Program-made: the position numbers and the translations under genes
Shown here: in pieces, positions 57,766-63,790 of the stretch
Layout: every line of letters begins with the position of its first letter
Position numbering within the stretch: the first letter of the stretch is position 1
Notes under the pieces: generated by a model
The model's database searches: none
Told to the model about the DNA's origin: nothing
What the model saw: the letters and a program-made list of their open reading frames with translations, nothing else
From: Saccharopolyspora hordei
GTDB lineage: Bacteria; Actinomycetota; Actinomycetes; Mycobacteriales; Pseudonocardiaceae
Reading direction: 5' to 3'
NCBI RefSeq assembly: GCF_013410345.1
Contig: NZ_JACCFJ010000001.1
Coordinates: 2,269,001-2,333,000, forward strand
DNA length: 64,000 nucleotides

Positions 57766-58815
57766 TCAGGCGCCGGGGCGCACCGGCATGACGAGCGTGG
57801 TGAAGCTGCCCTGGTCGGCGGAGCGCACCACGACGGGCAGGTCCGGTGCGGCGACCTCCAGCAGCACGTCGGGACCGACGCCGGCCTCCAGCGCCGGGAC
57901 GAGCACCGTCGGCCTGACGGAGACGGTCAACTCAGCTCCACTGTGGACTGCGGGCAGCCGGGACTCGGCGCCGCCGCGGTCGGTGACCACCAGCTGGTCC
58001 CCGGCGGTGCGCAGCGCGACCGGGCCTTCGGTGTCGAGCAGCGCGGTGCGCAACGCGCTGCGGTCGGTGACGACCCGGTTCTGCGGGCTCGGCAGGTCGT
58101 CCAGGATCAGCCGGTAGTCGGGGAAGGTCTCCTCCGAGGTCGTCAGGGGCCGCGTCTGGTCGTCGCTGCGCAGCCGTGCCCCGCTGTCGTCGACCTCGAT
58201 CTCGACCTCGGCGAGCGGCAGCGCCCACGAGGCGGCGTCGGTGAGCTCGGCGGCGTCGACCGCCAGGCGGGTCGCGCCGCCCTCGGCGGACACCGGTCGC
58301 AGCGTCCGGACCGCCAGCCGGTAGCGGTCGGTGGCCACCAGCCGCACCTCGTGGTCGTCGAGCTCGACGAGGACGCACCCCAGCACGGGGTACTTCCGCT
58401 GGACGGTGGGCGCCGCGATCGACGGCGCGACCTGCCGCACGGCGCTGGCCAGTTCCGCCCCGCCGACACGGACGCGCTGGCCGCCGGGCAGGGACCGCAG
58501 CACCTCCGCGATCGCGGACCGGGTGGCCGCTGCCGCGTCCTGCGCCCGCCGGGCGTGGGCGGTGAGCACGGCACGCGCCTGTTCGGCGGGCCCGTCGAGC
58601 ACCACGCCGACCTCGGCCAGCGGCACCCCGGCCGTTCGCAGCCGCCGCAGCAGGACCGCGCGCGACACCTGGGTGGGGGAGTAGTAGCGGTACCCGGTCG
58701 CCTCGTCGACGTGCGCGGGCGGCAGCACGCCGCAGTCGTCGTAGAACCGCAGCGCGCTCGGCGTCAACCCGGTCTGCCGCGCGAAGGAACCGATGCTCAG
58801 CGAGGTGTCGTCCAT
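57766..58815 (-). CDS. MerR-family regulator fused to a sliding-clamp (DnaN)-like domain
   Basis: The 349-residue protein begins with a MerR winged helix (SIGSFARQTGLTPSALRFYD; EATGYRYYSPTQVSRAVLLR; LRTAGVPLAEV; residues 1-75) and a dimer helix (to about 120). The remaining 225 residues resemble domains of the bacterial replication clamp: YPVLGCVLVEL, VRLVATDRYRLAVRTL, FPDYRLIL, LVVTDRGG. MerR-clamp fusions are recorded in actinobacteria but their ligand and role are unclear. The gene has a model MerR promoter (58829-58851) with a 19-base spacer and would be read as a leaderless message from ATG 58815. Confidence 0.85.
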   Translation of the reverse strand: MDDTSLSIGSFARQTGLTPSALRFYDDCGVLPPAHVDEATGYRYYSPTQVSRAVLLRRLRTAGVPLAEVGVVLDGPAEQARAVLTAHARRAQDAAAATRSAIAEVLRSLPGGQRVRVGGAELASAVRQVAPSIAAPTVQRKYPVLGCVLVELDDHEVRLVATDRYRLAVRTLRPVSAEGGATRLAVDAAELTDAASWALPLAEVEIEVDDSGARLRSDDQTRPLTTSEETFPDYRLILDDLPSPQNRVVTDRSALRTALLDTEGPVALRTAGDQLVVTDRGGAESRLPAVHSGAELTVSVRPTVLVPALEAGVGPDVLLEVAAPDLPVVVRSADQGSFTTLVMPVRPGA

Positions 58816-58890: not shown

Positions 58891-59691
58891 GTGCGCGCCG
58901 ACCCGATCCCGCTCCCCGAGGACGTGGCGGTGGACTGCGCCGAGCGGTACGCCTGCCTGGCCGACCCGGTGCGGGTGCGGCTGCTGCACGCGGTGGCCGC
59001 CGGACCGGCCACCGTCGACGAGCTGGCCGAGCTTGTGGGCGTCAGCCAGGACACCTGCGCCCACCACGTCCGCACGCTGGCCGACAACGGGTTCGTCGAG
59101 GTGGATGCGGCCGTCGTGACCGGTACCGCTCGCCGCGCCGGGCTGCCGCACCCGGCGGAGACCGTCCTGGGGCTGCTGGCCGTTCCGGACCGTTCGGACG
59201 ACGTGCCCGGTGACGTCGTGGTGCGCGCCCTGCGGGAGGAGGACTGGCCCGCGGTGCGCCGCACCTACGGTGAGGGCATCGCCACCGGCAACGCCACGTT
59301 CGAGACCGAGGTGCCGCCCCGCGAGGTCCTGGAGGCCACGTGGCTCGCGGACCACCGCTGGGTCGCCGAGGTCGACGGCGCGGTCGCCGGGTGGGCGGCC
59401 GCGACCCCGGTCTCGGCGCGCGAGTGCTACGCCGGTGTCGTCGAGACCTCGCTCTACGTCGGCGCGGACGTCCGCGGCCGGGGTGTGGGGAAGGCCCTGC
59501 TGCGCCGGCAGGTCGCGGCCGCCGACGCCGGTGGCCTGTGGACGCTGCAGACCTCGATCTTCCCGGAGAACCGGGCCAGCCTGCTGCTGCACCGCGCCGC
59601 GGGGTTCCGCGTGGTCGGCGTCCGCGAGCGCATCGGCCGGCACCACGGGGCGTGGCGGGACACCGTCCTGCTGGAGCGCCGCCGCCCCTGA
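58891..59691 (+). CDS. ArsR-type helix-turn-helix fused to GNAT (ArsN/PAT-like) acetyltransferase
   Basis: The 266-residue protein joins an ArsR-like winged helix (residues 1-105: ACLADPVRVRLLHAVAAGP; VDELAELVGVSQDTCAHHVR) to a GNAT domain (about 108-266: VVRALREEDWPAVRRTYGEG; NATFETEVPPREVL; VYVGADVRGRGVGKALL-type acetyl-CoA loop; GFRVVGVRERIGRHHGAWRD). The acetyltransferase resembles phosphinothricin/arsinothricin N-acetyltransferases (PAT, ArsN). Cys at about 16, 22 and 56 could bind As(III), similar to the three-Cys site of corynebacterial ArsR. GTG at 58891 is used; GTG 58876 is possible. Confidence 0.82.
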   Translation: MRADPIPLPEDVAVDCAERYACLADPVRVRLLHAVAAGPATVDELAELVGVSQDTCAHHVRTLADNGFVEVDAAVVTGTARRAGLPHPAETVLGLLAVPDRSDDVPGDVVVRALREEDWPAVRRTYGEGIATGNATFETEVPPREVLEATWLADHRWVAEVDGAVAGWAAATPVSARECYAGVVETSLYVGADVRGRGVGKALLRRQVAAADAGGLWTLQTSIFPENRASLLLHRAAGFRVVGVRERIGRHHGAWRDTVLLERRRP

Positions 59692-59740: not shown

Positions 59741-59769
59741 TTGACACCCCGCCCGCGCGCTGGAACCGT
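59741..59769 (+). promoter_or_regulatory. promoter upstream of the cobalamin riboswitch
   Basis: TTGACA (59741-59746) is a perfect -35 hexamer; 17 bases later lies AACCGT, a weak -10. The riboswitch begins a few bases downstream. Confidence 0.5.
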
Positions 59770-59779
59770 CGATCAGGAG

Positions 59780-59936
59780 TCCACGCGACGGTGCGCAGGA
59801 AGCCGGTGAGAGTCCGGCACGGTCCCGCCACTGTGAACGGGGAGTCGCTCGTCACCCGCGCCACTGCCGCTCTGCGGTGGGAAGGCAGGCGAGCGGCGTC
59901 GATCCGTGAGTCAGGAGACTGACGCCGTCGTGCCGA
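59780..59936 (+). ncRNA. cobalamin (B12) riboswitch
   Basis: The conserved core is clear: GGAAGCCGGTGAGAGTCCGG (59798-59817), then CACGGTCCCGCCACTGTGAA, and the B12 box GTGAGTCAGGAGACTGACGC (59906-59925). ACGCGACGG near the 5' end pairs with CCGTCGTGC at the 3' end to close P1. Adenosylcobalamin-type riboswitches usually lower expression of downstream genes when B12 is plentiful. A leader ORF and a three-gene operon follow. Confidence 0.93.
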
Positions 59937-59975
59937 ACCGCACGGGGTCGCGGAGCCCCGGAGGAGGTCATCGAC

Positions 59976-60047
59976 GTGCCGCAGCGCGTTCCACTGCAGC
60001 CCGGCGGCCCGACGCCGCCCAGCACTGCGCAGCGCTCCACACCCTGA
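59976..60047 (+). CDS. 23-residue leader ORF after the riboswitch
   Basis: GTG at 59976 lies seven bases after a strong GGAGGAGG and opens a 23-codon frame (starting VPQRVPLQPGGPTPP) that ends at TGA 60045-60047. A hairpin-capable GGGGTC/GAGCCCC segment (59944-59959) lies between the riboswitch and this site. The site is the first after the aptamer, so the peptide or its translation may be part of the control mechanism; it could also be accidental. No family is recognised. Confidence 0.4.
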   Translation: MPQRVPLQPGGPTPPSTAQRSTP

Positions 60048-60132
60048 CGCCAGGGAACCAGGTCTGAGCCAACCAGCCCCTCGGTCGGTGCGGGTCCGCC
60101 GCGCCGACCGCTGACCCGTGTGGAGACCTCGC

Positions 60133-60975
60133 GTGCTTCCAGCCCCACTCCCCACGGCCCGGACCTCGCACTCGGCCCTGCGCGCAGTGGTCGAGCGGGT
60201 CCGCGCCACCGACCCGTCCCTGCCCGACGTGCGGGCCTCGGTCGTCTTCCTCACCGTCCAGGGTGCGCACCACGTCGGCCGGGGCTCCGGCTACGCCAAC
60301 ACCGTGCTCAGCGTGCGCATCGGCGGCGCGGTCGGCTCCTGCGCGGTGGAACCCGGCCAGGTCGATCCCGGTGCCGTGCACGACCTGGTCGGCCGCAGCG
60401 TCGCCGACCTGCTGGAGCACGAGGACCCGGCGGTCCGGGTCGCCGCGCTCGACGCCCACCTGGCCGACCGCGTCCCGCACGCCCAGCACCCGGCCGCCCG
60501 GACGGTGCGGATCCCGGCCGGGACCTCGCTGGAGAAGTCGATGGCCCGCGCCCGCGCCGTCGCCGAGCTCGTCCCGGTCGCCGACGGCGGCACCGTCGCG
60601 GTGATCGGCGTGGTGAACTCGCTGCTCGCCGCCCTGCGCGAGCGCGGCGCCCACCCCGTCCCGTGCGACCTCAAGGGCGGGCGCACCGAGTGGGGCGAGG
60701 AGGTGCTGCGCGACCACCGGGCCGCGATCGCCGGTGCCCAGGCGGTGCTGGCGTCCGGCATGGTGCTCGGCAACGGCACGTTCGACGAGATCGCCGCGCT
60801 GTGCGCCGAGCGCGGGCTGCCGCTGGTGCTGTTCGCGCAGACCGGTGCCGCCGTGCTCCGGGAGATGCTCGGCGCGCAGGTCCACGCGCTGTCCGCCGAG
60901 CCCTACCCGTTCTTCTGGCTGAGCGGGGAGAGCACGGACATCCACCACTACAGCGCGGCGGGTGAGCTGCCGTGA
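60133..60975 (+). CDS. DUF364/DUF4213-type Rossmann protein (putative heavy-metal chelation family)
   Basis: The 280-residue protein has an N-terminal DUF4213-like part (VQGAHHVGRGSGYANTVLSV, IGGAVGSCAVEPG) and a C-terminal Rossmann-like DUF364 domain (VAVIGVVNSLLAALRERGAH, GMVLGNGTFDEIAALCAERG, FAQTGAAVLREML). Pfam describes these domains as putative heavy-metal chelation; no reaction is proved. It is the first structural gene after the cobalamin riboswitch and overlaps the PLP-enzyme start (GTGA). GTG at 60133 is preferred because GGAG lies seven bases before it; GTG 60118 is in frame. Confidence 0.82.
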   Translation: MLPAPLPTARTSHSALRAVVERVRATDPSLPDVRASVVFLTVQGAHHVGRGSGYANTVLSVRIGGAVGSCAVEPGQVDPGAVHDLVGRSVADLLEHEDPAVRVAALDAHLADRVPHAQHPAARTVRIPAGTSLEKSMARARAVAELVPVADGGTVAVIGVVNSLLAALRERGAHPVPCDLKGGRTEWGEEVLRDHRAAIAGAQAVLASGMVLGNGTFDEIAALCAERGLPLVLFAQTGAAVLREMLGAQVHALSAEPYPFFWLSGESTDIHHYSAAGELP

Positions 60976-62063
60976 CCGCCACCGACCTCAGCGGCGGCCC
61001 GAAGTGCCGCTCGGTGCTGGACCTCATCGGCGGCACCCCGGTGCTGCGCATCGACACCCCGCTCCCCGGCGAGCACCCCGGTTTCTGGGCGAAGCTCGAG
61101 GGTTTCACCCCCGGCGGCATGAAGGCGCGGGCCGCGCTGTCGATGGTCCAGGGCGCCCGCAGCCGCGGTGAGCTGCAGCCCGGCGGCACGATCGTGGAGT
61201 CGACCAGCGGGACGCTCGGCATCGGCCTGGCCTGCGTCGGCGCGGCGCTGGGCCACCCGGTGGTCGTCGTGGCCGACCGCGAGCTGGACGACATGACGCG
61301 GGCGATGCTGCGCGCCCACGGCGCGCGGGTCGAGCTCGTCACGGAGCCGCACCCGGTCGGCGGCTGGCAGCGGGCCCGCAAGGAGCGGGTGACCGAGCTG
61401 CTCGCGCAGATCCCCGGTGCGTACTGGCCGGACCAGTACGGCAACCCGGACAACCCGGCCGGCTACTCGTCCCTGGGCCGCGAGCTGACCCGCCAGTTCG
61501 ACCACCTCGACGCGGTGGTGTGCAGCGTCGGCACCGGCGGGCACAGCGCCGGCATCGCCCCGGTGGTGCGGGAGCGCTGGCCGGACGTCAAGGTCGTGGG
61601 CGTCGACTCGGTCGGCTCCACGGTGTTCGGCCAGCCCGCCGGGCACCGGCTGATGCGCGGCCTGGGCAGCAGCATCCACCCGGGCAACGTCGCCTACAAC
61701 GTCTTCGACGAGGTGCACTGGATCGGCCCGGCCGAAGCGGCGGACGCGTGCCGCCGGCTGGCCGCCGGGGCGTTCGTGACCGGCGGCTGGAGCACCGGGG
61801 CGGTCGCGCTCGTCGCCGCGTGGACCGCGGCGGAACTGGGCTCCGACGCGGTGTGCGGGGTGTTCCCGGACGGGCCGCAGCGGTACTGGCAGACGATCTT
61901 CGACGACGACTACCTCGCCGAGCACGGGCTGGTGCCGCAGGCCCGACGACCGTCCGCTGTGGACTCGCCGGGCTGGACCAGGACCAGCGCGGTGGTGGAC
62001 CCCTGCCCGGCCCGCACCGGGACCGGGCAGGACTGCGAGGTGTGCGAGGAGGACGACCGATGA
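60972..62063 (+). CDS. cysteine synthase-like PLP-dependent enzyme
   Basis: The 363-residue fold-type II PLP enzyme has the Schiff-base Lys51 in GGMKARAA, the substrate loop ESTSGTLGIGLA and the phosphate-binding VGTGGHSAG. It carries out beta-replacement or a related reaction on an amino acid. The loop STSGTLG differs from the TSGNTG of true cysteine synthases. An unusual Cys/Asp/Glu-rich tail (DPCPARTGTGQDCEVCEEDD) could bind metal. Its stop overlaps the MFS start as ATGA. Operon context under a B12 riboswitch points to cobalt- or corrinoid-linked metabolism (inference). Confidence 0.85.
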   Translation: MTATDLSGGPKCRSVLDLIGGTPVLRIDTPLPGEHPGFWAKLEGFTPGGMKARAALSMVQGARSRGELQPGGTIVESTSGTLGIGLACVGAALGHPVVVVADRELDDMTRAMLRAHGARVELVTEPHPVGGWQRARKERVTELLAQIPGAYWPDQYGNPDNPAGYSSLGRELTRQFDHLDAVVCSVGTGGHSAGIAPVVRERWPDVKVVGVDSVGSTVFGQPAGHRLMRGLGSSIHPGNVAYNVFDEVHWIGPAEAADACRRLAAGAFVTGGWSTGAVALVAAWTAAELGSDAVCGVFPDGPQRYWQTIFDDDYLAEHGLVPQARRPSAVDSPGWTRTSAVVDPCPARTGTGQDCEVCEEDDR

Positions 62064-63319
62064 GCACGTTCCGGCGGATGTCGCGGGCCGCGCAGCTGCT
62101 GATGGTCAACCAGTTCGGCATCAACGTGGGCTTCTACATGCTGCTGCCGTTCCTGGCGACCCACATGAGCGAGGACCTCGGCTACGGCGCGGCGGTGATC
62201 GGCCTGCTGCTGGGCGTCCGGAACCTCAGCCAGCAAGGCATGTTCCTGGTCGGCGGGACAGCCGCGGACCGGCTCGGGTGCCGACCGATGATCATCACCG
62301 GGTGCGCGCTGCGGGTGGTCTCCTTCGGACTGTTCGGCGTGTTCACCTCGCTGCCCGGGCTGTTCACCGCCGCGGTGCTCACCGGCCTGGCGGGCGCGCT
62401 GTTCAACCCGGCGGTGCGCACCTACCTCATGCACGAGGCGGGGGAGGAGCGGGCCGAGGCGTTCGCGGTGTTCAACGTCTTCGCGCACGCCGGCACCCTC
62501 GTCGGGCCGCTGCTCGGGGCCGCGCTGCTCGCCGTCGACTTCCGGTTGATCGCGCTGGTGGCGTGCCTGGCGTTCGCGGTGCTGACCGTGGCCCAGATCG
62601 TCGTGCTGCCCCGGCGGGAGATCGAACCGCAGCGGGGCAGCGTGCTGGGGAGTTGGCGCGAGGTGGCCACCAACGGCCGCTTCCTGGTGTTCACGCTCGC
62701 GCTGTCGGCCTACTTCGGCCTGTACAACCAGCTGTACCTGATGATCCCGCTGGAGGCGCAACGGGTGTCCGGGTTGTCCGGGTCGGTGGCGGCGGTGTTC
62801 GTGGTGTCCACCACCATCGGCATCGCCGGCCAGGTGCGGATCACGCGCTGGTGCCGCGACCGGTGGACCCCGGGGCGGTCGGTGGCGCACGGCCTGGTGT
62901 GCATGGGCGCGTCCTTCGTCCCGGTGCTGCTGACCAGCCCGCTGCTGGCGGCGCCGCCGCCGGGCGCACCGGACTGGGCGCGGATCGCGCTGGTGTGCCT
63001 GCCGGTGCTGCTGACCACGGTGCTGTTCACGGTCGGCATGGCGATCACCAACCCGTTCGCGATGGAGCTGCTCCCGGTCGTGGGCAGCGAGCGGCTGGCG
63101 GGCACCTACTACGGGTTCTACTACCTGGTCTCCAGCCTGGTGGCGGCCGGGGTGAGCTGGGTGGTGGGCGCGTTGCTCGACGCCACGGGGGAGTCCCCGC
63201 TGCGCTGGGCCCCGTGGCTGGCCCTGCTCGCGGTGGGCGTCCTCGGCGGCCTCGGCGCGGCGGTCCTGGAACGACGGGGTCTGCTGCGGCGGCGGGAGGC
63301 GGCCGGAGCGCTCGGGTGA
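62060..63319 (+). CDS. MFS transporter in the riboswitch operon
   Basis: The 419-residue protein has 12 membrane segments. It opens LLMVNQFGINVGFYMLLPFLAT and carries the loop motif GGTAADRLGCRPMIITG, typical of drug-efflux-like MFS (DHA) proteins. Several metallophore operons use an MFS exporter of this size, so export of the product of the two upstream enzymes is plausible; import cannot be excluded. Start is ATGA-coupled to the PLP-enzyme gene. Last gene of the operon. Confidence 0.9.
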   Translation: MSTFRRMSRAAQLLMVNQFGINVGFYMLLPFLATHMSEDLGYGAAVIGLLLGVRNLSQQGMFLVGGTAADRLGCRPMIITGCALRVVSFGLFGVFTSLPGLFTAAVLTGLAGALFNPAVRTYLMHEAGEERAEAFAVFNVFAHAGTLVGPLLGAALLAVDFRLIALVACLAFAVLTVAQIVVLPRREIEPQRGSVLGSWREVATNGRFLVFTLALSAYFGLYNQLYLMIPLEAQRVSGLSGSVAAVFVVSTTIGIAGQVRITRWCRDRWTPGRSVAHGLVCMGASFVPVLLTSPLLAAPPPGAPDWARIALVCLPVLLTTVLFTVGMAITNPFAMELLPVVGSERLAGTYYGFYYLVSSLVAAGVSWVVGALLDATGESPLRWAPWLALLAVGVLGGLGAAVLERRGLLRRREAAGALG

Positions 63320-63634: not shown

Positions 63635-63790
63635 ATGAAGATCAGCTCTGTGTTCAGCAACCGCTTCGGTCACGGCGGCGGCCGCTGGGGTGGCCACTGG
63701 GGCGGCCACTGGGGCGGCTGGAGCGGCGGCTGGGGCCGCTGGGGCGGTAACTGGGGCGGCTGGGGTGGTTGGGGCGGCTGGGGCTGCTGA
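63635..63790 (+). CDS. 51-residue Trp/Gly-rich peptide
   Basis: ATG at 63635, 6-11 bases after GAGGG, opens MKISSVFSNRFGHGGGR followed by a run of WGG-type units (WGGHWGGHWGGWSGGWGRWG and onwards) and a final Cys. There are 10 Trp, 22 Gly and 3 His in 51 residues. There is no signal peptide or membrane segment. The composition suggests a structural, aggregating or modified peptide; I recognise no family. In-frame ATGs upstream, including 63607 (MDDYRNEGFTMK), are alternatives. A strong hairpin follows at 63843-63890. Confidence 0.6.
   Translation: MKISSVFSNRFGHGGGRWGGHWGGHWGGWSGGWGRWGGNWGGWGGWGGWGC

Follow-up and report, generated by a model that had tools for sequence, protein, structure and literature searches.

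Analysis of a 64,000-nucleotide stretch of the Saccharopolyspora hordei genome (assembly GCF_013410345.1, contig NZ_JACCFJ010000001.1, positions 2,269,001 to 2,333,000; hereafter the window) identified a cobalamin riboswitch followed by three coupled genes, which encode a DUF364-family protein, a pyridoxal phosphate (PLP)-dependent synthase and a major facilitator superfamily (MFS) transporter. This trio is probably the synthesis-and-export half of a secreted cobalt metallophore ('cobaltophore') system. The observations read directly from the DNA are the riboswitch, the trio, an importer behind a second riboswitch, the conservation of the arrangement, the differing regulators of paralogous operons, and the absence from the genome of CbiM, CbtA and NicO. 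From these we infer the product, the metal and the direction of transport.

The aptamer matched Rfam family RF00174 over the full model with 89.9 bits, well above the gathering score of 31.5 bits, and was the sole above-threshold Rfam match in the 64-kb window. The three open reading frames (ORFs) 3′ of it each overlap the next by four bases. An original prediction, made from the letters alone, had described a B12 riboswitch before three coupled genes encoding a DUF364 protein, a cysteine-synthase-like PLP enzyme and an MFS transporter, and both the arrangement and the assignments (matches to PF04016, PF00291 and PF07690) were borne out. It had also placed a promoter at a TTGACA hexamer upstream of the aptamer. 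The hexamer is present, but the promoter is unconfirmed, because no convincing -10 box could be found by eye 16-18 bases downstream. Coordinates of all features are given in Table 1.

Table 1. Features of the riboswitch-controlled operon and of the detached importer. Positions are those of the window unless stated otherwise.
Feature	Position	Strand	Remarks
TTGACA, -35-like hexamer	59741-59746	+	sequence
Cobalamin riboswitch aptamer	59772-59943	+	Rfam RF00174, 89.9 bits, E 6.3e-21, full length (model positions 1-189)
Expression-platform hairpin GGGGTCGCGGAGCCCC, conserved	59944-59959	+	abuts aptamer 3′ end
Ribosome-binding site GGAGGAGGT, strong	59960-59968	+	immediately 3′ of hairpin
Leader ORF, 23 codons, GTG start	59976-60047	+	positioned for ribosome-binding site 59960-59968
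DUF364-family protein	60133-60975	+	GTG 60133 the likelier start; in-frame alternative GTG 60118
PLP-dependent synthase P0002, SbnA/CysK2-related	60972-62063	+	PF00291, 193.5 bits
Cys tail of the synthase, DPC...CxxC, class A-specific	61998-62060	+	tail comparison
MFS transporter, predicted exporter	62060-63319	+	PF07690, 132.4 bits
Detached SBP_bac_5 ABC importer	C1:3006236-3011050 of the S. hordei genome (G000)	-	own RF00174 upstream; outside the window

Together, the hairpin and the ribosome-binding site (Shine-Dalgarno, SD) form a 25-nt element (59944-59968). The ribosome-binding site serves the leader ORF and not the DUF364 gene. The original prediction had included neither this element with its leader ORF nor the importer, located outside the window. 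As it abuts the hairpin, control of the trio by the riboswitch is likely to be translational. The loop of hairpin GGGGTCGCGGAGCCCC finds only a 4-nt complement (CCGC), in an L5-like stretch near 59824, and an L5-L13 kissing loop between the two is possible.

Relatives of the locus fell into distinct classes. Synthase matches with E <1e-110 outside the window numbered 89, of which 8 were left out together with 12 weaker ones, and 93 loci (80 plus 12 fetched relatives, and the window) were sorted by tblastn. Class A has the gene order DUF364-synthase-MFS (n = 14 loci, window included). Class B comprises 27 loci, 26 of them typical and one (L119) without the epimerase spacing and the importer; its order, with the Pfam matches of L012 as the example, is amino-acid ligase (ATP-grasp + LAL_C2)-DUF364-synthase-MR/MLE epimerase-MFS-methyltransferase-importer. 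Class C consists of synthase-MFS (n = 47 loci), and at E 1e-4 tblastn found DUF364 in none of the 47. Five loci outside the classes (L015-L018, L110) were set aside as 'other'. Some loci are repeats: L009/L050 and L014/L071 lie on the same contigs, and L053/L054 and L059/L061 are near-identical. In a synthase tree, class A formed one clade (100/100, 12 rows) and class C, with the unclassified L110, a separate one (99/99), while class B did not form a single clade. Class C synthases were 53-59% identical to that of the window.

The riboswitch was constant among the class A loci scanned. RF00174 preceded the trio in 13/13 scanned class A loci (L050 was left out of the scan). A later family-wide DUF364 search of 390 genomes gave 24 class A-grade matches, graded by E-value alone with gene order unread (A-grade ≤2.4e-89, B-grade ≥6.4e-81). 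Fourteen A-grade loci came from new genomes, and all 14 carried RF00174; three of these (L173, L177 and L193) repeat L008, L011 and L010, leaving 11 of 11. The trio had been expected to recur beside B12 riboswitches in other genomes, and this is what both searches found. The 25-nt element was exact in 13/14 class A loci, with one mismatch in L011, and in 20 of the 24 class A-grade loci. By eye, class A leaders have a start codon at the position of the leader ORF; the peptide sequence is unconserved. The scan found RF00174 in none of the 27 class B loci, none of the 6 class B-grade loci of the later search and none of the 13 class C loci scanned out of 47.

Class B was preceded by a different element. 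A TGAMAAYGRTTATCR box occurs upstream of the first class B gene, with a leave-one-out score of at least 19 in 26/27 loci; the best class A score was 9.0, the 95th percentile of random windows 6.8, and the random maximum 30.6, which is perhaps a true box. Across five genomes, the TGAMAAYGRTTATCR pattern with at most one mismatch gave 10 sites and its reversed control none. Three sites precede class B operons, and three others a znuA-like gene, an L36 paralogue, and a COG0523-like gene divergent from L28/L33/S14 paralogues. The remaining sites lie before FecCD-type ATP-binding cassette (ABC) genes (two) or have no recognised target by sequence (two). The znuA-like gene, the ribosomal-protein paralogues and the COG0523-like gene identify the class B box as a Zur box. 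IdeR- and RicR-like patterns in the region upstream of class B did not outperform shuffles. In Streptomyces and its relatives, class B (L012-L014, L019, L059-L076, L078, L126-L128) can be regarded as a candidate zincophore operon, and the open-licence literature on Zur, metallophores, and ATP-grasp with cysteine synthase in Streptomyces held no description of such an operon. The S. hordei genome itself has a single match to the Zur pattern with at most one mismatch (C1:4661759-4661773, L162); the genes that follow it encode a FecCD-type permease and an ABC ATPase, which may form an uptake system for zinc or a metallophore.

Judged by its gene arrangement, a homologous synthase-MFS pair in the same order, class C corresponds to the lpqS-cysK2-Rv0849 operon of mycobacteria. 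In the available portions of two sources, this operon is described as co-transcribed and RicR/copper-responsive (PMC10956863, PMC10470581). Copper control of class C is taken from that literature, as no copper box was found upstream, and gapped palindromes upstream of class C showed no clear excess over a downstream control. A small gene in the lpqS position, with the conserved C-terminus LC[IV]xR, was found upstream in 35/47 loci, against 8 in the downstream control (e.g. L085:5341-5757). The LC[IV]xR motif before class C had been considered as the end of a leader peptide, an idea that was dropped, since in L085 it is the C-terminus of this small gene. Copper-type families were only modestly represented among 128 class C neighbour genes (DUF305 7, E1-E2 ATPase 5, HMA 3, within the first 25 of 100 families). 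With a riboswitch in class A, a Zur box in class B and the copper-operon match in class C, one core seems to have come under cobalt/B12, zinc or copper control, depending on class.

The importer provides a further line of evidence. Seven RF00174 matches were found in the single-contig S. hordei genome (G000, 5.78 Mb), six of them over the cut-off. Besides the trio, these precede cobN, a cobaltochelatase gene, metE, class I nrdA, a BtuF/BtuC-like pair and an SBP_bac_5 ABC importer. At the cobN riboswitch, CobG-like and precorrin-8X methylmutase genes run opposite to cobN. The BtuF/BtuC-like pair, itself below NCBIfam cut-offs, follows the sub-threshold match (29 bits). The SBP_bac_5 importer consists of a binding protein (PF00496, 232.7 bits), two BPD_transp_1 permeases and an ABC ATPase, of the nickel/peptide type, and is homologous to an importer located 3′ of the MFS gene in relatives. 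An SBP_bac_5 homologue occupies that position in 9/14 class A, 26/27 class B and 0/47 class C loci. The five class A genomes without an adjoining importer (S. hordei, S. kobensis, Saccharopolyspora sp. NFXS83, G314 and G381) all have an importer homologue elsewhere (at least 69% identity), in each case with its own RF00174.

The detached importers also share the expression platform of the trio. The 25-nt element was exact at four of the five, and one base shorter at L140. In S. hordei, the trio and importer riboswitches carry identical copies, which are absent after the other five riboswitches. The two aptamers share 87% identity across 171 columns; those of metE and nrdA are similarly close (86%, 200 columns). 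Given this likeness, trio and importer look like one operon that was split in two, with the riboswitch copied. At L140, L143 and L144, inspection by eye placed the end of the leader ORF a few bases before the start of the importer binding protein, as translational coupling would have it. A possible trace of the DUF364 start in a detached-importer leader was discarded: its local score of 27 compared with a shuffle mean of 25, and was reached by 92/300 shuffles. The co-occurrence of DUF364 with the importer, and the lack of both in class C, suggest that DUF364 serves uptake-type systems, where it may make the final ligand or handle the returned complex.

The cobalt supply of the genome points in the same direction. 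S. hordei has the B12-synthesis genes for CobN, precorrin-8X methylmutase, cobaltochelatase and a CobG-like protein, and no match to CbiM (PF01891), CbtA (PF09490) or NicO (PF03824) was found anywhere in its genome. The comparison was extended to genomes with class A and to genomes without it, the latter being those genomes of genera g1, g3 and g5 that were listed without a match. All three families were absent from 8/13 class A genomes and 1/10 others in a first sample (p 0.017), and from 8/14 and 2/11 in a second (p 0.058), in which three class A genomes of the first recur. Pooled, with the repeats G777, G778 and G779 left out, the counts were 14/24 and 3/21 (one-sided Fisher p 0.0026, in a test that ignores phylogeny). 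In genus g3, the class A genome G184 has no CbtA; three tested congeners without class A have it.

Assignment of the DUF364 protein by sequence was marginal (PF04016, 23.9 bits, cut-off 23). An AlphaFold2 model (predicted local distance difference test score, pLDDT, 87.8) was compared with the PDB using Foldseek, and the best six matches were chains of 3l5o and 3npg, the two solved DUF364 proteins (best E 2.6e-10, for 3l5o). A DUF364 alignment profile run against PDB sequences gave 3npg as the sole plausible match (E 0.058). Family membership, for which an enolase-N-like plus Rossmann-like fold is expected, can be called marginal by sequence and, on the modelled structure, firm by fold. The available text of the DUF364 structure paper describes an inter-domain pocket and gene neighbourhoods with metal ABC transporters, and proposes a chelator-related enzyme (PMC2954201). 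In a further paper, a DUF364 gene of Serratia is reported to be preceded by a putative regulatory RNA element that controls it from the 5′ side (PMC4046660).

The synthase had TIGR03945 (SbnA, 2,3-diaminopropionate biosynthesis) as its best NCBIfam match, at 251.4 bits against an equivalog cut-off of 349.95, and appears related to SbnA without being a member of that family. For a class C synthase, SbnA is the nearest protein of solved structure; the motifs ESTSG.LG, EPxxxGG and GSx[IV]FG are common to these two in alignment and are visible in P0002. SbnA uses O-phosphoserine and glutamate in the staphyloferrin B pathway. The expected reaction of P0002 is a β-replacement, that of a β-substituted alanine synthase, probably with O-phosphoserine as substrate, and an amino acid as nucleophile would give an aminopolycarboxylate resembling ethylenediaminedisuccinate (EDDS). 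The tail of the synthase had been described as rich in Cys, Asp and Glu. Its Cys-rich part is real and conserved, with DPC in 14/14 class A loci followed by CxxC in 13/14, and no DPC...CxxC tail was seen among the tails inspected, 14 from class B (out of 26) and 14 from class C (out of 47). This tail may possibly act as a metal-responsive brake. The MFS protein fell far below the NCBIfam cut-offs for both CntE (NF047574; 19.9 bits, cut-off 235) and MdtH (149.8 bits, cut-off 469).

Taken together, these data suggest the following sequence of events. With ample B12, the cobalamin riboswitch would keep the ribosome-binding site of the leader shut. As B12 falls, the leader ORF would be translated, and the trio would follow through translational coupling or relief of Rho termination. 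The OFF-switch logic and the upstream ORF have precedents: B12 riboswitches of Mycobacterium tuberculosis are described as translational OFF switches with upstream ORFs, and in one case the gene that follows cannot do without its upstream ORF (PMC11260477). The synthase would then probably exchange the phosphate of O-phospho-L-serine for the nitrogen of an amino acid, yielding an aminopolycarboxylate. DUF364 may carry out a second biosynthetic step or act on the returned metal complex, and the MFS protein would export the ligand. The cobalt-ligand complex would re-enter through the SBP_bac_5 importer, which in S. hordei is under its own cobalamin riboswitch with the same platform, and the imported cobalt would feed B12 synthesis. 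The central proposal of the original prediction, a small molecule that scavenges cobalt or a corrinoid and is produced and exported under B12 shortage, is largely supported by the importer riboswitches, the sister operons of Zur and copper type, and the absence of three cobalt-transporter families from many class A genomes. Cobalt is better supported than a corrinoid, as a different riboswitch match, a weak one, lies ahead of the BtuF/BtuC-like pair.

A broader proposal, which we favour only slightly over its negation, is that this would be the first dedicated cobalt metallophore, and that DUF364 and the PLP synthase form the core of a family in which the upstream regulator determines the metal, the Cys tail of class A being a possible metal-sensing brake. 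In such a family, a cobalamin riboswitch would denote cobalt, Zur would denote zinc, and a copper repressor would denote copper detoxification without an importer. Bacterial cobalt entry is usually ascribed to ion transporters, and we know of no cobalt-specific metallophore. The open-licence full-text literature yielded no paper tying cobalamin riboswitches to DUF364 or metallophores, and none on a cobaltophore; the only paper found on metallophores, riboswitches and cobalt in actinobacteria was a general siderophore review, and the idea was absent from its available text. If correct, the proposal would assign DUF364 a role in acquiring metals that can be tested, explain the source of cobalt in a genome with B12-synthesis genes and no CbiM, CbtA or NicO, and extend the targets of cobalamin riboswitches to metallophore operons. 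The copper genes cysK2-Rv0849 of mycobacteria could be read anew as a chelator-and-export pair, and a family of small chelators would be predicted, the metal of each being readable from its regulator.

Several findings weigh against a cobalt metallophore or against the regulator as a guide to the metal. At least one of CbiM, CbtA and NicO is carried by 10/24 class A genomes. Within the genus of S. hordei the absence of all three was not significantly associated with class A (4/9 vs 2/13, p 0.15), and the genomes compared in all these tests are not phylogenetically independent. Relatives of SBP_bac_5, going by PDB names, also bind peptides, agrocinopines and heme. Zur-like boxes scoring >22 occur in 2/47 class C loci, and a copper-repressor half-site pattern was found upstream of 0/47 class C loci, against 2/47 in the downstream control. 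The nearest PDB sequences to P0002 are those of ordinary cysteine synthases (2egu, 5.2e-45), with SbnA fifth (1.2e-40). CysK2, in the accessible portions of the papers on it, is an O-phosphoserine-dependent S-sulfocysteine synthase (PMC9048740, PMC12910592), and this description disfavours an amino-acid nucleophile unless the substrates differ.

The riboswitch could instead serve as a proxy for demand for another metal. A shortage of B12 would force the use of MetE and the class I ribonucleotide reductase, and the trio would then make a zinc (or iron or manganese) metallophore. MetE uses zinc, metE and nrdA of S. hordei are both under cobalamin riboswitches, and Zur boxes are found in the sister class B. 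However, three class A genomes (G302, G314 and G381, the last two near-identical) also contain a class B locus, distinct from the class A one and equipped with a Zur box. These genomes thus already possess a zinc version in addition to class A, and on this ground the proxy was rejected as the principal explanation. The low Zur-box scores of class A and its complementarity with cobalt transporters, which a zinc ligand would not lead one to expect, further argue that this explanation is unlikely.

Corrinoid salvage, in which the exported product would aid the capture of B12 or cobinamide, with uptake of the corrinoid complex through the SBP_bac_5 importer, would fit the regulation by cobalamin and the presence of heme-binding proteins among the importer's relatives. 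It is nevertheless improbable: the BtuF/BtuC-like pair has its own, weak riboswitch match, the zinc- and copper-type control of the paralogous operons favours metal ions, and S. hordei has corrin-synthesis genes.

Less probable still is a role in sulfur metabolism, with a CysK2-type S-sulfocysteine or cysteine synthase and an amino-acid exporter aiding methionine synthesis by MetE at low B12. The correspondence of the class C pair to cysK2-Rv0849, the activity described for CysK2 and the resemblance of P0002 to cysteine synthases of solved structure would agree with it, but DUF364, the importer with the second riboswitch and the Zur box of class B would be left unexplained, and the best NCBIfam match of P0002, like the closest solved relative of the class C synthase, is SbnA, a siderophore-pathway enzyme. 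An ordinary cysteine synthase operon was rejected on the importer, DUF364 and the differing regulators. Least probable of all is a signalling or antibiotic molecule brought under B12 control by chance and unrelated to metal uptake: clusters for such compounds often contain MFS exporters and PLP enzymes, but metal-type control of three related classes and a dedicated importer would be hard to reconcile with it.

A cobalt metallophore would also have parallels among known systems. Staphylopine and pseudopaline (Cnt) systems combine biosynthetic genes, an MFS exporter and an SBP_bac_5 ABC importer, switched on by metal shortage; here a similarly small biosynthetic set, an MFS exporter and an SBP_bac_5 importer stand under cobalamin-riboswitch control. 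The analogy with staphylopine drawn at the outset holds for this logic of exporter and importer but not for the biosynthetic enzymes. Neither a CntL-like nicotianamine synthase nor a CntM-like opine dehydrogenase was found in the trio, importer or class B proteins scanned, the trio having instead DUF364, an SbnA/CysK2-like synthase, a cobalamin riboswitch and an MFS protein remote from CntE. Membership of the staphylopine systems was rejected because these defining enzymes are absent. Unlike SbnA, P0002 has no SbnB partner in the operon and lies below the TIGR03945 cut-off. Class C resembles lpqS-cysK2-Rv0849 in the order of its homologous synthase and MFS genes and in the small upstream gene, and differs from class A in having neither DUF364 nor importer.

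A chemical model for the product is [S,S]-EDDS of Amycolatopsis japonicum, an aminopolycarboxylate that the available part of the source describes as Zur-regulated and zinc-repressed. Its metal control differs from that of the trio, and the proposed likeness is one of product chemistry. The cobalt importers CbiMNQO, CbtAB and NicO/NiCoT, often under cobalamin riboswitches, would fill the same role as the proposed system; they belong to unrelated families, whereas the trio would act through an exported ligand and an SBP_bac_5 importer.

Some neighbouring genes were also noted. Just 5′ of the riboswitch (58891-59691, + strand) lies a fusion of an ArsR-type helix-turn-helix domain with a GNAT domain, resembling the arsinothricin acetyltransferase ArsN1 below the cut-off. 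A GNAT gene with a shared signature is divergent upstream of the operon in L051, L052, L055, L056 and L058 (class A) and in L013 (class B), as judged by eye, with Pfam support for L055 only; this acetyltransferase is possibly an extra tailoring or resistance enzyme. Further upstream in the window (57769-58815, - strand), a MerR-type DNA-binding domain is fused to a DNA polymerase III β-clamp-like domain, and by eye a similar gene occurs upstream of the trio in L008. A short ORF 3′ of the operon (63635-63790, + strand), beginning MKISSVFSNRF, consists mostly of Gly/Trp/His repeats (WGGHWGGHWGG) with Cys at its end.

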